Assembly (NCBI RefSeq): GCF_021379005.1
Contig: NZ_CP075171.1
Coordinates: 5,146,001-5,210,000 of the forward strand
Length of the DNA: 64,000 nt
From: Leptodesmis sichuanensis A121
GTDB taxonomy: Bacteria > Cyanobacteriota > Cyanobacteriia > Leptolyngbyales > Leptolyngbyaceae
Direction of reading: 5' to 3'
Shown: positions 30,568-56,586 of the stretch, in pieces
Layout: the number at the start of each line of letters is the position of its first letter
Numbering within the stretch: the first letter of the stretch is position 1
The notes under the pieces: generated by a model
Databases searched by the model: none
Told to the model about the DNA's origin: nothing
Seen by the model: the letters and a program-made list of their open reading frames with translations, nothing else
Program-made: the position numbers and the translations under genes

Positions 30568-32016
30568 ATGTCCTTGATGATTTACAACACCCTGACCCGC
30601 CGCAAAGAACCCTTTGAAACCCTGGAACCGGGGAAGGTGCGGATGTACGTCTGTGGCGTGACGGTGTATGACTACTGCCATCTGGGACACGCCCGCTCTT
30701 ACATCGTTTGGGATACGGTACGCCGTTACCTCACCTGGCGCGGCTATCAGGTGCGCTATGTGCAGAACTTCACCGACATTGATGACAAAATCATCCGGCG
30801 ATCGCAGGAATCAGGACTGCCCTGGCAGGAAATCACCCACAAATATATCGATGCCTACCTGGAAGACATGGGACGGCTGAATATTCTGCCTGCCGATGCC
30901 TATCCCAAAGCCACCGAGGTCATCCCCCAGATTATCAACATGATTCAAACCTTGATTGATCAAGGCTATGCCTACGCTGCTGGGGGAGATGTGTATTACG
31001 CTGTGGAGCGCTTTCCCCAGTACGGCAAACTCTCAGGCCGCAAACTGGAGCAGATGGAAGCGGGAGCCAGTGGCCGGGTGGAAGACGAAGCGGAAGCGAA
31101 AAAACGTCATCCCTTAGATTTTGCTCTCTGGAAAGCCGCGAAACCGGGGGAACCAGAGTGGGATTCTCCCTGGGGTAAAGGTCGTCCGGGTTGGCACATT
31201 GAATGCTCGGCAATGGTGAAAGAGTTGCTAGGCGATCGCATCGACCTGCATGCTGGCGGCGAGGATCTGATCTTTCCCCACCATGAGAACGAAATTGCCC
31301 AATCGGAAGCCGCCCTCTCCAAACCTCTCGCGAACTACTGGATGCACAACGGCTTTGTGAAGATTCGGGGCGACAAAATGTCTAAATCCCTGAAAAACTT
31401 CACCACCATTCGATCGCTCTTGGAAACCACCGATCCGATGGTGGTGCGCCTGTTTGTCCTGCAAGCCCATTATCGTAGCCCGATCGATTTCACCGACGAG
31501 GCGATCGCGGCTGCCGAAAATGGCTGGAGAACTTTAAAGGAAGCTCTCCTGTTTGGCCATGACTTTGGCGTGCAACTGGCCTGGATTCCCGATCCCTCTG
31601 GTGCGAAAGCTACGGCATCCCCCTGGGCAGAAGATTTTCAAACTGCAATGGATGACGACTTCAACACCTCGGAAGCGCTGGCGGTGCTGTTTGCGATCGC
31701 CAAGATCCTGCAGCGAGAACGTAACCTGCTAACCCACGCAGGCAAGACCGAAACCGATGCTAACCAACTGGAAAGCCTCTGGCACGAACTGGTAGACCTG
31801 GCTCAAGTTCTCGGCCTGGAAGCCCAACCCGCCGCTGAACCCGAACCTGCCAGCGGCCTGCGAGTTTCCCAAATCGAAGCCCTGATTCAACAACGCCAGG
31901 AAGCCCGCAAAGCCAAGAATTTTGCCGAGGCCGATCGTATCCGCAATGAACTCCAGACCCATGGCATTACTCTCGTCGATCAAGCAGGCGGCGAAACCCG
32001 CTGGTATCGGAGCTAA
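30568..32016 (+). CDS. cysS: cysteinyl-tRNA synthetase
   Basis: Class I synthetase that charges tRNA-Cys; 482 aa, close to the usual 460-490. The HIGH-type motif is CHLGHARSY (about 36-44) and the KMSKS motif is DKMSKSLKN. Zinc ligands fit the family: the Cys in MYVCGVTVYDYCHLGHAR, the Cys of HIECSAM, and the His/Glu in FPHHENEIAQSE. The anticodon-binding DALR-like helical domain occupies the C-terminus. A DUF4258 relic starts 2 bp after the stop, so that module was probably read from the same transcript. Confidence 0.96.
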   Translation: MSLMIYNTLTRRKEPFETLEPGKVRMYVCGVTVYDYCHLGHARSYIVWDTVRRYLTWRGYQVRYVQNFTDIDDKIIRRSQESGLPWQEITHKYIDAYLEDMGRLNILPADAYPKATEVIPQIINMIQTLIDQGYAYAAGGDVYYAVERFPQYGKLSGRKLEQMEAGASGRVEDEAEAKKRHPLDFALWKAAKPGEPEWDSPWGKGRPGWHIECSAMVKELLGDRIDLHAGGEDLIFPHHENEIAQSEAALSKPLANYWMHNGFVKIRGDKMSKSLKNFTTIRSLLETTDPMVVRLFVLQAHYRSPIDFTDEAIAAAENGWRTLKEALLFGHDFGVQLAWIPDPSGAKATASPWAEDFQTAMDDDFNTSEALAVLFAIAKILQRERNLLTHAGKTETDANQLESLWHELVDLAQVLGLEAQPAAEPEPASGLRVSQIEALIQQRQEARKAKNFAEADRIRNELQTHGITLVDQAGGETRWYRS

Positions 32017-32018
32017 AC

Positions 32019-32285
32019 ATGCAGATCGTGTGGACAAAGCACGCTGAAGAAAGGCTAGAACAGTGGCAGGAGCGGTTAAAAATTACCAGAGAAGAGGTGG
32101 AAGCGGTGGTTACTGCTCCTCAACAGACTATCCTGGAAGGAGATATTTGGGTGGCCCAGGTTCGAAGAGGTAACGGTTTTTTGTGAGTACCCTATGTTGA
32201 TATTGGCAGAATTAGACGAATCTTGACTTTGTATGGGACGAATCAAGTTAAGTGATATTGGCAGGAGGATCTTAATGAGAATTAA
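32019..32285 (+). pseudogene. DUF4258 protein interrupted by two in-frame TGA codons
   Basis: Reading from the ATG at 32019 gives MQIVWTKHAEERLEQW and an otherwise continuous DUF4258-type protein of about 88 codons that ends at a TAA (32283-32285). TGA codons fall at 32184-32186 and 32253-32255. The text resumes in the same frame after each one: VPYVDIGRIRRILTLYG after the first and YWQEDLNEN after the second. From what I remember of the family, arginine (or lysine) is expected at both places, and CGA to TGA is a single transition. A 55-aa product may still be made. The 3' end overlaps the DUF2283 start by 11 bp, so the two were once translationally coupled. Confidence 0.85.
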
Positions 32286-32475
32286 GTCTGATCCAGAATC
32301 AGATATTTTGATCTTCCTTCTCAAGGACATTCCTCCCAGTAATGCTATCTCTGAACCAGGAGGAATCATTGTCAGCTATGACGAAAGCGATGAACCGATT
32401 AGCATTGAGAAACTCAATGCTTCCAAACGCCAACTGTTTAATCCTCAAGATCCAAAACTAACCATCACCCTGTAG
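32275..32475 (+). CDS. DUF2283 protein, partner of DUF4258
   Basis: 66 aa beginning MRIKSDPESDILIFLL, with the family blocks GGIIVSYDESDEP and ISIEKLNAS. An upstream in-frame ATG (32233) exists, but it lies inside the DUF4258 frame and the family starts at 32275. DUF2283 and DUF4258 genes are often neighbours and have been discussed as a possible toxin-antitoxin-like pair; function is not established. Here the DUF2283 frame is intact while its partner is broken. Confidence 0.85.
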   Translation: MRIKSDPESDILIFLLKDIPPSNAISEPGGIIVSYDESDEPISIEKLNASKRQLFNPQDPKLTITL

Positions 32476-52174: not shown

Positions 52175-54800
52175 TTATCCCTGGGTTAATGGGATGCTCA
52201 GGGGCAAAAGTTTTACTGTAAAGGTTGTCCAACCCTGATGGCTGGTGACTTGGATGGTTCCACCTAGCTCCGTCACCATGCGTTGTACCAGGGCCAGTCC
52301 TAAGCCTGTCCCCCCTTGCTTCCACCGATCGCCATTAGGAACCCGGTAGAATTTGTCAAATATTCTTGACAATTCTGCGGAGGGAATTTCTGCCTGATTA
52401 CGGATGGTCATGGTAATCCCGGCTGTTTGGGCTGGGGGGGCTGGGTTGTGCTCCTGGATGCTTAAGACAATTTCTCCTGCGGGGGAAGTGTATTTGCAGG
52501 CGTTATTTAGCAGTTCTGCAATGATTCGTTCCAGAGTGTTGCGGTCTGTCGTAATCGGGGGTAGATCGGGAGATAGCTCGATCTGCAGATGCTGCTGGCG
52601 ATCGCGGGCACGGGATTGAAACGGCTCGATCAGGTTCATGACGCAGGATTGCAAGTCCACTACGACGGGTGAAAGGGAGTAGGAAGCGGCTTCCAACCGC
52701 TGCAAATCCAGTAAATCATTAATTAATTCAATTTCCCGAACACACTCGGCCTGCAGAATGTTGAGATACTGCTGCTGGCGCTCTGGCGAATTCATGTTTT
52801 GTAGCATATGAATTGCCATTTTCATGTTAGACATGGGGGTTCGCAGTTCATGAGAAACGGTGCTGAGAAAGTCATCCTTAAGCAGGTTAAGTTCTTCCAG
52901 CGCTGTAACCTGAGCCTGGGTTGCCTGATATAAGCGTGCCTGACGGATGGCGATCGCACATTGGTTAGCAACCTGCTGCACCAGACGAATTTCTAATTCT
53001 GTAAATGCCTCACTGGCCTGCTGAAACAGCCACAAATCCCCCATGACGGATTGATCATCCACGATCGGACAGACGAAACAGGCTACTTTGCGAGGAGAGG
53101 GACGGAATGGATTGGGGATCACTGGGCAGAACTGGAAATATTGGCCCTGAAGCAACTGAGCATACTGGTCGGAATTTTCCGACATGGGAATACAGGTTCC
53201 TTTGGCTGGCGGAATCCCGGTGCAAATGTATTCATAGCGAATGGTTGAAGTTTCTTGCTGCAGGTCGTACATGGCTGTATCGCAGCCCTCTACATCCAGT
53301 CCTAAAGCCAATTCTTGTACCGCATTTTGCAGGATCTGATCCTCATCTAAACTATCGCGTACAGAGTCTGTAATCCGCTTCAGCATGGCCTCGTAATGCA
53401 GGGCCTGCTCCAATTGAGTGGTGCGTTCCTGCACCTGTATCTCCAGATTGGTGTTGAGCCGCTGAACCTGGCCATAAAGCTCTGACTGTTGAATGGCGAT
53501 CGCGACTTGAGTGGCCAGTTGTTCTAATAACCCGATCTCATAAGATTCCCAGTGGCGAGGGGCGTTGCATTGATGGGCAACCAGCATGCCCCAGAACTGA
53601 TTCCCATGCAGAATGGGGACAGACAGAAATGCCTGTACCTGAAGCTCACGCATAGCCTGCTGAAATTGGGTAAAGTCTGCTAATCGCTGGACGTCATCCA
53701 CCACTAAAGGTTTTCCCTGACGGTAAGCATTATGCTGCTGCTCAATGAGGTGATCCTGCCGCTTGAAGCCCAGGATAGAGCGACAACCTGGCTCAACAGA
53801 TTCAGCTATCACGGTGCGATCGCCGTTGGCATTGCAGCAATAAATGACGACCCGATCAACATTCAAAAACTGCCGTACTTCAGAAACCGTTGTATTCAGA
53901 ATTTCTGTAAAATTCAGCGATTGTCGGATGCGATGAGCGATGCCAGCCGACAGCTTGGCTAATCCAGCCATTAAACGTTCTCGCTCGGCCTGTTGCCGCA
54001 GGGCTGCTTCAGCCGTTTTCCGTTCAGTAATATCCCGTGTGAAGCAGTGGTGTCCCAAAAACTGGTCGTACCAATCGTAAGCCGCCACGATGACCACTTC
54101 GTTGTAGAAGATAGAACCATCCTTGCGGAGCGCACGGACTTCTACTTCCGCTTTGCCATCTTGCAGCATCTGTTGGTAAGCGACCGTAATGATCTCTAAA
54201 TCGTCTGGGTGAATAGTTTGGTTCCACGATAGGCCAATCATTTCTGCCTGCTCATAACCCAATGCTTCTGCATAGGCTCGGTTCAAAGCAATAAAGCGGC
54301 CTGCTGTATCCAGGCGAGCGATCCCTTCTACCGCATTACCCAGTGCTGTACTCATTTCTAAAAGTTCTGCCTGGGCTTGCTGGCGTTCGGTGACATCCAC
54401 AAAGAAAACTGACAGCCCCTCTGCAGCTGGGAAGATTCTCACCTCAAACCAGGTTTTCAGAAATGGATAAAACTCCTCAAACGTCGCTGGGGTTTGCTGT
54501 TGCAGAGAACGGCGGCATTCTCGCTCCAGGATCGTTCCTACCAATTCGGGAAAAATTTCCCATAGGTTTTGTTTGAGAACCTCTTCCTGGGTACGGCGGA
54601 TGAGTTGGGCAGCCCGTTGATTCAAATAAGTCAACCGCCACTCATTATCCAGGGAGAGAAATGCATCGGTGATGCTTTCTAAGATATTGAAAATTTGTCG
54701 ATTGGCTGCTCTCAGTGCTTCTTCAACTTTTTTGCGATCAGTGATATCGTGGCAATTGACGACCACTCCTCCAATCGCTGGATCATCCAGTAAACTGGTC
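52175..54800 (-). pseudogene. 3' part of PAS/GAF sensor histidine kinase split by an IS
   Basis: This holds most of a cytosolic-type sensor kinase. Joined to the part at 56228-56586, after removal of the IS and one target copy, it makes one frame of 992 codons. The piece carries the end of a first PAS/PAC (VNCHDITDRKKVEEAL), a second PAS (about residues 25-130 of this part), a third PAS (about 140-250, HPDDLEI), a GAF domain (about 275-435), a linker coiled coil and a second GAF (about 465-620). It ends with HisKA (FLSTVSHELRTPMSNMKM) and HATPase_c (IFDKFYRVPNGD, GGTGLGLALVQ). An 863-codon frame with an internal GTG remains and could give a protein lacking the first PAS. The signal is unknown. 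Confidence 0.9.
54792..54800. repeat. 9-bp target-site duplication (left copy)
   Basis: AAACTGGTC directly precedes the left IS end and is repeated exactly at 56228-56236. Confidence 0.93.
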
Positions 54801-56227
54801 CAGCAATTCTAAATTCAAAAAGCTAAGAGGAATCAGCAGTTTGAGCAGGCGGGGAATCAGAGAGCATGAAATTGAGGAGATGCTGCCAACTTTCAAACCA
54901 GAGGTATTTGGTGAGCGCCAAAATATCTTGGAAAAAGCCCCTGCGCGTCCCTCGCTTGTGGCGAATCTGCTGATAGGAGAGGTCAACGAGATGCAAGACG
55001 GTATGAAAGAGGAATGCCAAGAGATTGAGGGTGAGCAGAGTAGCAGCTAGATGGTGTTGACCATGGCCAAAGTTATGTTCGAGATGATAGCCCTTGGTCT
55101 TGAGGACGTTATGATTTTCGTTCTCAGTCTTCCACCGACTTCTGCCAGCGCTGACCACGTGGGGCACCGTTGCGGGAGTCAGGTCGTGGTCAGTCACCCA
55201 GGCATTGGTGTAGAGGACTTTGCCGTCTGATTCGCGCACCACTGTGAGTTCACACCAGTTGACTTGCAAAGCAGGTTGGGTGTCGCGCAGCGGAATTTGA
55301 TTGACATAGCGGTAGCGATAAATTTCTTTCGTGCGTTTGTTCCACTGCGCTTGTTCTAAGGTTTTGACTTCGCCGTTGGCATCCAAATAGCCCAGCCAGT
55401 CGTAGAGGGCAGGGTGCGACTGTGGCAGACACGTAAAAATAAAGCTGAATTGATGCTGTAAGCAGTGTTCGCACAGGGGTTGATGGCTATAGAGGTCATC
55501 TCCAAGCAGGGTTATCCCTTGAGTTCCAAACCGAGCCGCATGAGTGCTGATCCACCGTTTGGCGGCTGCCACTTCACAGTCTTGCTTCTCATGCCCATCT
55601 TGCGGGGTGACAAACTCTGGGACTAACGCAATCACCTGCGGTTGATCAGGCGCGACAATCGCTGGCAAAATCGCCTGATGAACGTAAGTGACCTTGCCAT
55701 TCTTGTGGGTTCGACTCGAACAGTACTGACAGTGAATCTTCTGCGACTTGAAGTACTCCGTGCCATCCAATGCCACCAACAAATCTCCATTCCATTGCTG
55801 ATAGGATTTGAAATATCCCCCTCGCATCAAAGCGGCATAAACCTGGAAAAACACGGCAAACAATCCCACCGCTGCCACTTCATCCAACAAATTGCGGATT
55901 TGCGCTGAACTCGGAATCTGGGCAATCCCAAACAAACTTTGGGCGTTGTCTTTGCCCCGCTGACTTTGCATCTGCCGCTGATGCTCTAGAAACGATTCAC
56001 ATTGCATGAAGAACACCGAAAACGCCCCCAAAATCCCATCGCTCAGCTTGTAGCGCGTTCCATTGCTCGGCTGTCGCGGGTCAGCAATCTGTTCCACGAC
56101 TTGACGTAGATAGCTCAGCAACACAGCAAAACTCAGGGGCAGACTCTCCATGTTTCGGCTCTCGCGTAGGAATCTCTATCCTCTCTTCAGTTGTTCTTCC
56201 TGTCAAAATCTGAATTTGGAATTGCTG
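54801..56227 (-). mobile_element. complete insertion sequence, 1,427 bp
   Basis: The two ends read inward as CAGCAATTCTAAATTCA (from 54801) and CAGCAATTCCAAATTCA (from 56227 on the other strand). That is a 17-bp terminal inverted repeat with one mismatch. A perfect 9-bp target duplication flanks it. One full-length transposase fills it. It interrupts a histidine kinase gene, in the same orientation. The exact ends, exact duplication and restored frame point to a recent insertion. Confidence 0.95.
54823..56151 (-). CDS. DDE transposase (IS4/ISNCY-like)
   Basis: 442 aa, apparently intact, encoded inside the IS with 76 bp of leader. Candidate DDE residues are D in ALDGTEYFKSQ, D in LLGDDLYSHQP and E in RWKTENENHNVLKTKGYHLEH, with the second-half Y/E/K pattern of IS4-like enzymes. 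A Cys/His set (HCQYCSSRTHKNG, CEHCLQHQ) could bind metal. Exact family assignment (IS4 or an unclassified ISNCY group) needs a database. The 9-bp target duplication is consistent with IS4-like elements. Confidence 0.9.
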   Translation of the reverse strand: MESLPLSFAVLLSYLRQVVEQIADPRQPSNGTRYKLSDGILGAFSVFFMQCESFLEHQRQMQSQRGKDNAQSLFGIAQIPSSAQIRNLLDEVAAVGLFAVFFQVYAALMRGGYFKSYQQWNGDLLVALDGTEYFKSQKIHCQYCSSRTHKNGKVTYVHQAILPAIVAPDQPQVIALVPEFVTPQDGHEKQDCEVAAAKRWISTHAARFGTQGITLLGDDLYSHQPLCEHCLQHQFSFIFTCLPQSHPALYDWLGYLDANGEVKTLEQAQWNKRTKEIYRYRYVNQIPLRDTQPALQVNWCELTVVRESDGKVLYTNAWVTDHDLTPATVPHVVSAGRSRWKTENENHNVLKTKGYHLEHNFGHGQHHLAATLLTLNLLAFLFHTVLHLVDLSYQQIRHKRGTRRGFFQDILALTKYLWFESWQHLLNFMLSDSPPAQTADSS

Positions 56228-56586
56228 AAACTGGTCGCCACCGCTTCAAAAAAACGCCAGGAGCCGTTAAGATGCCGCACCCGATATTCAATTTTGGGCT
56301 GGCTAAGGCGAGGAGCTTGAATGGCGTTGTGCAGAACCTGCAGAATGAGATGAATGTCATCTGGATGGACGAGTTCTGCGGCGGGTCGCCCTTCGACATC
56401 CTCCAGGCGGTAGCCCAGGACTCGTTCAGCAGAAGGGCTACAGTACTGGAAAACCCCATTCTGATCCAGAATCACAATAATATCGGTGGAGTTTTCAATC
56501 AATAAGCGAAATCTACGGGAGGCATAGTCAGACCCTTCAGGATTGCCCCCGTGTAATGCTGTTTCGGTCTGCTTACCATTTGCCAT
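56203..56586 (-). pseudogene. 5' part of the IS-split sensor histidine kinase
   Basis: 127 codons from the native ATG (MANGKQTETAL) through most of a PAS_3 domain (FRLLIENSTDIIVILD, GYRLEDVEGRPAAELVHPDD, HLNGSWRFFEAVATS). It then runs into the IS at 56227 and stops at 56203-56205. The last eight or so residues (SNSKFRF) are IS-encoded. Restoring the junction gives ATSLLDDPAIGGVVV, which is a normal PAC ending. A short PAS-only protein may still be produced. Confidence 0.9.
56228..56236. repeat. 9-bp target-site duplication (right copy)
   Basis: AAACTGGTC follows the right IS end and is identical to 54792-54800. Confidence 0.93.

Follow-up and report, generated by a model that had tools for sequence, protein, structure and literature searches.

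When a small gene is interrupted by in-frame stop codons and its downstream neighbour is intact, the question is whether the interrupted frame is recoded, yields a functional shortened protein or has decayed, and, in the last case, what the survival of the neighbour says about the two proteins. This question is raised by a DUF4258/DUF2283 gene pair of the cyanobacterium Leptodesmis sichuanensis A121, located within the 64,000-nucleotide stretch of DNA analysed here (the window), at which the following features were recognised:

30568..32016, + strand: cysS (cysteinyl-tRNA synthetase), ending 2 nt ahead of the module
32019..32285, + strand: DUF4258 pseudogene, an 88-codon family frame with two internal TGA codons (profile, alignment)
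32019..32186, + strand: 55-aa open reading frame left ahead of the first TGA (reading of the frame; predicted fold of an intact relative)
32184..32186, + strand: codon 56 as TGA; every aligned relative encodes Arg here, the six closest by AGA
32235..32237, + strand: GGG (Gly73), a third damaged invariant position, TGG (Trp) in intact relatives
32253..32255, + strand: codon 79 as TGA; every aligned relative encodes Arg here, the six closest by CGA
32263..32268, + strand: AGGAGG, Shine-Dalgarno-like site for DUF2283 within the last DUF4258 codons (sequence; equivalent stretch retained in deleted copies)
32275..32475, + strand: intact DUF2283 gene (66 aa), putative antitoxin (PF10049, 31.8 bits against a cut-off of 23)

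The DUF4258 frame is terminated by TAA at 32283-32285, and the translation of 32019-32285 on the + strand, with stops as asterisks, is MQIVWTKHAEERLEQW...RRGNGFL*VPYVDIGRIRRILTLYGTNQVK*YWQEDLNEN*. As the first-pass annotation had proposed, alignment to DUF4258 homologues shows that homology persists in the same frame past the first TGA, where 21 of 27 residues are shared with the intact relatives L026/L027, as are 40 of the 55 residues ahead of it; in a genome search with our own profile, the match covers the whole frame at 99 bits with both TGA codons inside. The two stops lie, again as proposed, where Arg is expected, codons 56 and 79 being Arg in 23/23 aligned relatives. Of the two CGA-to-TGA transitions originally postulated, only the second is clear, because in the six closest relatives (L090-L095) codon 56 reads AGA and codon 79 reads CGA; the first TGA is more simply explained as AGA-to-TGA. 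The invariant Trp73 (TGG) has been replaced by Gly (GGG), and the window copy violates 5 of 35 conserved columns, a number exceeded only by L113 (55% identical). When read through, the copy scores 14.8 bits against PF14076 (DUF4258), below the Pfam cut-off of 25, and it is a decayed relative of the PF14076 members, not a working one; with two internal stops and Trp73Gly, no functional toxin is encoded by the frame. Pairwise dN/dS between the window copy and intact relatives is still ~0.13, which indicates that the decay is recent relative to the divergence, a value that over 66-84 codons is too coarse for dating the decay beyond "recent". The window DUF4258 gene is, in short, a recent pseudogene.

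The partner frame, whose integrity had also been noted at first pass, ends with the stop at 32473-32475, and its start is most likely the ATG at 32275 behind AGGAGG (32263-32268), rather than 32233. The two genes overlap by 11 nt, as in the intact relatives. At the 3' end of DUF4258, codons for Tyr-Trp-Arg (TAT TGG AGG) or Tyr-Trp-Gln-Glu hold the GGAGG-type ribosome-binding site of DUF2283; DUF4258 copies that have suffered deletions (see below) retain this 3' stretch with the Shine-Dalgarno site, which was partly the criterion by which such copies were recognised. On the upstream side, the cysS end is 2 nt from the DUF4258 start (32014-32021), so that cysS and the module are probably transcribed together in the window genome. 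In none of the other family loci fetched does the module lie beside cysS, so that the same-site comparison yielded no empty-site junction, and the DNA downstream of cysS gave no alignment between the loci compared.

The nature of the lost protein is indicated by its intact relatives. PF14076 is matched by L090 (25.3 bits), L012 (27.8 bits) and L013 (40.4 bits) and just missed by L095 (23.8 bits). The model of the intact DUF4258 relatives in the named-genome alignment (pLDDT 94.7) has the order E-H-H-E-E-E (beta-alpha-alpha-beta-beta-beta), and nearly all of the 50 solved structures listed for it by VIA-align are RelE/YoeB/ParE/HigB/YafQ/BrnT-type toxins, with a best Z of 7.9 over 72 residues, below the aligner's caution line of 8. 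A RelE/ParE-like (BECR) fold is thus confidently predicted for DUF4258 here, and Arg56, invariant and lost in the window copy, lies in a strand that may resemble that of the catalytic Arg in RelE/YoeB. With the DUF4258 model alone, Foldseek found nothing at E <= 0.001. For the DUF2283 protein, the model is of moderate quality (pLDDT 81) and has no convincing solved relative, its Foldseek matches being weak and scattered and therefore not used. Sequence search of the PDB returned nothing convincing, PADLOC and NCBIfam contained no useful family for either protein, and no relative was found on viral contigs.

DUF4258 copies scoring at least 70 bits with our own profile were counted in 386 cyanobacterial genomes. 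All of the 32 copies have DUF2283 directly downstream, usually with an overlap of 4 or 11 nt, and show the layout of type II toxin-antitoxin systems, namely two small, adjacent, co-oriented and usually overlapping genes. Weaker DUF4258 hits, belonging to another subfamily (L150-L155) and devoid of DUF2283, were not counted. Five of the 32 copies are broken by stops or frameshifts beside an intact DUF2283 (the window, G237, G106 and both G061 copies, in one of which the loss is confined to the last few codons). A deletion accounts for each of seven more independent losses, in which a few 3' codons of DUF4258 still precede DUF2283 (the second copy of G000, G119, G298, G202+G290, G280+G282, G170 and G128), which brings the independent DUF4258 losses with DUF2283 intact to 12 in this sample. 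Three others occur in the family sample (G004:C41, by a TGA; G432, by a frameshift; G431, by deletion) and five among the named genomes, where Trp has become TGA in L102, a stop stands at codon 5 in L104, and the N-terminal part is gone in L115, L116 and L119. Over all samples, 20 losses with differing stop positions or junctions were thus collected, some of the broken copies coming from draft genomes or metagenome bins, and an intact DUF4258 beside a broken or missing DUF2283 was found in none of these samples. Under a null in which losses fall on the two genes in proportion to their length, which is simple and ignores other mutational biases, p is ~0.001 for 12/12 and ~1e-5 for 20/20.

Left out of this count were L112, L117 and L118, in which both genes are damaged, as well as the possible start-codon losses L035, L099 and L108, where an open DUF4258 frame has CTG, ATA or AAG in place of the ATG of its relatives and DUF2283 is intact. 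In Limnofasciculus baicalensis, a 16-codon DUF4258 fragment (L093, 1788-1835) is identical to the intact copy 1.2 kb downstream and is perhaps the remnant of a second copy. A second, divergent DUF2283-like open reading frame (KIYYEPEMELLTVFWQ...) lies near several modules (L008 2010-2156, L052 749-895, L032 2234-2380, L101 3734-3880).

The window genome itself contains a sibling of the decayed module. At G000:C1:2507266-2507466 (L050), a DUF2283 gene sharing ~90% DNA identity with its counterpart in the intact pairs L008/L012 is preceded by a DUF4258 remnant, in which MDFKFSSHAL is followed by a deletion that removed most of the gene and then by a frame-shifted tail with TGGAGGAACC just ahead of the ATG. 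Since this module and the one at 32019 have both decayed, different mutations have cost the genome two DUF4258 genes, and both partners have been kept; a third, divergent DUF4258/DUF2283 pair (1602126-1602517) is intact. In the same genome (L076 1001-1201 and 2334-2483; G000:C1:1602356-1603838), a partial second copy of a DUF2283 gene lies ~1.3 kb from the first and shares with it an identical 40-aa C-terminal part and identical downstream text; a PIN-like and a HicB-like open reading frame are found in between. Elsewhere in the window (52175-56586, - strand), a transposase-like open reading frame (54823-56151) has a PAS-domain fragment (56203-56586) on one side and, on the other, a PAS/GAF histidine kinase frame (52175-54766) whose start reads as mid-domain text; a kinase gene was apparently split by an insertion element.

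What do these losses say about the two proteins? The idea, already put forward in the first-pass annotation, that the loss of one member tells which protein is harmful is borne out by the comparison of lone copies, in which DUF4258 has been lost repeatedly, in many lineages, and DUF2283 alone never; some twenty one-sided losses suggest that DUF4258 is the harmful protein and the surviving DUF2283 the antidote. The first gene would encode a member of the RelE/ParE superfamily that most likely inhibits growth as an RNase, and the second a partner that neutralises it and whose translation starts from the ribosome-binding site within the toxin gene's final codons; toxicity, RNase activity and neutralisation are what we infer here. 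In such a toxin-first module of the addiction type, the antidote would have to remain translatable; loss of the toxin would be tolerated and that of the antidote would not, so that an orphan antidote remains. It is likely that the window locus is a decayed toxin-antitoxin-like module of this type, in which the toxin-like gene was recently inactivated in the window lineage by the changes of Arg56 and Arg79 to stops and of Trp73 to Gly. With somewhat less assurance, we favour the wider view that DUF2283 is an antitoxin family paired toxin-first with DUF4258 RNase-like toxins across cyanobacteria, where the toxin is lost repeatedly and the antidote is kept translatable through the site in the toxin's last codons.

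The main rival to a toxin and its antidote is that DUF4258 is non-toxic and merely dispensable, and that DUF2283 is kept by selection for a cellular function of its own. A useful role of this kind would likewise result in one-sided loss, and lone DUF2283 genes without a detectable DUF4258 remnant (G180, G260, G220, G097 and others) indicate that the protein can persist alone. It fails, however, to account for the fact that intact DUF4258 never occurs without DUF2283 (0/32), as well as for the RelE-like predicted fold, and we regard it as unlikely.

A sequencing or assembly error at both TGA sites is very improbable, in that three invariant sites are hit (two nonsense, one missense) without any frameshift, the genome is a single contig rated 99.9% complete, and the sibling modules show the same kind of decay. 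The recoding of TGA is without support, because TGA is an ordinary stop that ends 12 of the 40 window genes checked and the Rfam search for tRNA-Sec gave no match above the cut-off, only sub-threshold matches such as were also found in control genomes. The 55-aa form, which had initially been considered a possible new variant, is unlikely to function, as it would end within the central strand of the predicted fold (strand 53-62, which contains the first stop), thereby lacking that strand, the conserved Arg56 and the C-terminal strands, with half the sheet removed. In favour of a functional product, the 5' part of the frame has a low dN/dS against relatives (~0.1), but the part past the stop has one as well. 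That either this product or a readthrough protein is functional can be dismissed as extremely unlikely, given that Trp73Gly affects an invariant residue and that the DUF4258 breaks of other genomes fall at quite different codons (5, 27, 32, 56, 73 and 81).

The preferred interpretation, a toxin-first module reduced to its antidote, can be set against systems already described. DUF4258 (PF14076) has been assigned to the RelE/ParE superfamily, its activity being unknown (PMC11980606), and the intact relatives of the window gene resemble the members of that study in their PF14076 matches and predicted RelE/ParE-like fold. The systems reported there comprise an antitoxin-first order and DUF4258-MqsA fusions, whereas in the window type the toxin-like gene comes first and its partner is DUF2283. 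In E. coli, the partners of DUF4258 are strictly downstream (PMC10790755), as in the window-type module. A cyanobacterial DUF4258 has already been predicted as a toxin, the Synechocystis slr1421, whose partner is the HicB protein ssr2377 (PMC4963859) and stands first in the order, while in the window type DUF2283 stands second.

BrnT/BrnA and HigB/HigA have in common with the window-type module the toxin-first order and the RelE-like fold. BrnA and HigA differ as proteins from DUF2283, which is predicted to be a small beta protein with no recognised DNA-binding domain. We know of no function for DUF2283, and a literature search, beyond the reach of which lay most subscription journals, nowhere found it named as an antitoxin.

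Pseudogenised toxins and orphan antitoxins are of an already known kind, having been reported in Klebsiella and E. coli (PMC7192599, PMC10790755), where, as here, the antitoxin-like gene outlives a lost or decayed toxin. The E. coli study contains orphans of both kinds, whereas orphan toxins were not seen among our modules, and within one module family the decay of the window type can be followed through remnants that carry nonsense codons, frameshifts or deletions. The part worth testing is the DUF4258/DUF2283 pairing. The natural series of losses, about twenty in one gene versus none in its partner, points out the candidate toxin and the candidate antidote for such tests, and it offers intact pairs along with natural knock-outs, of which two lie in the window genome.
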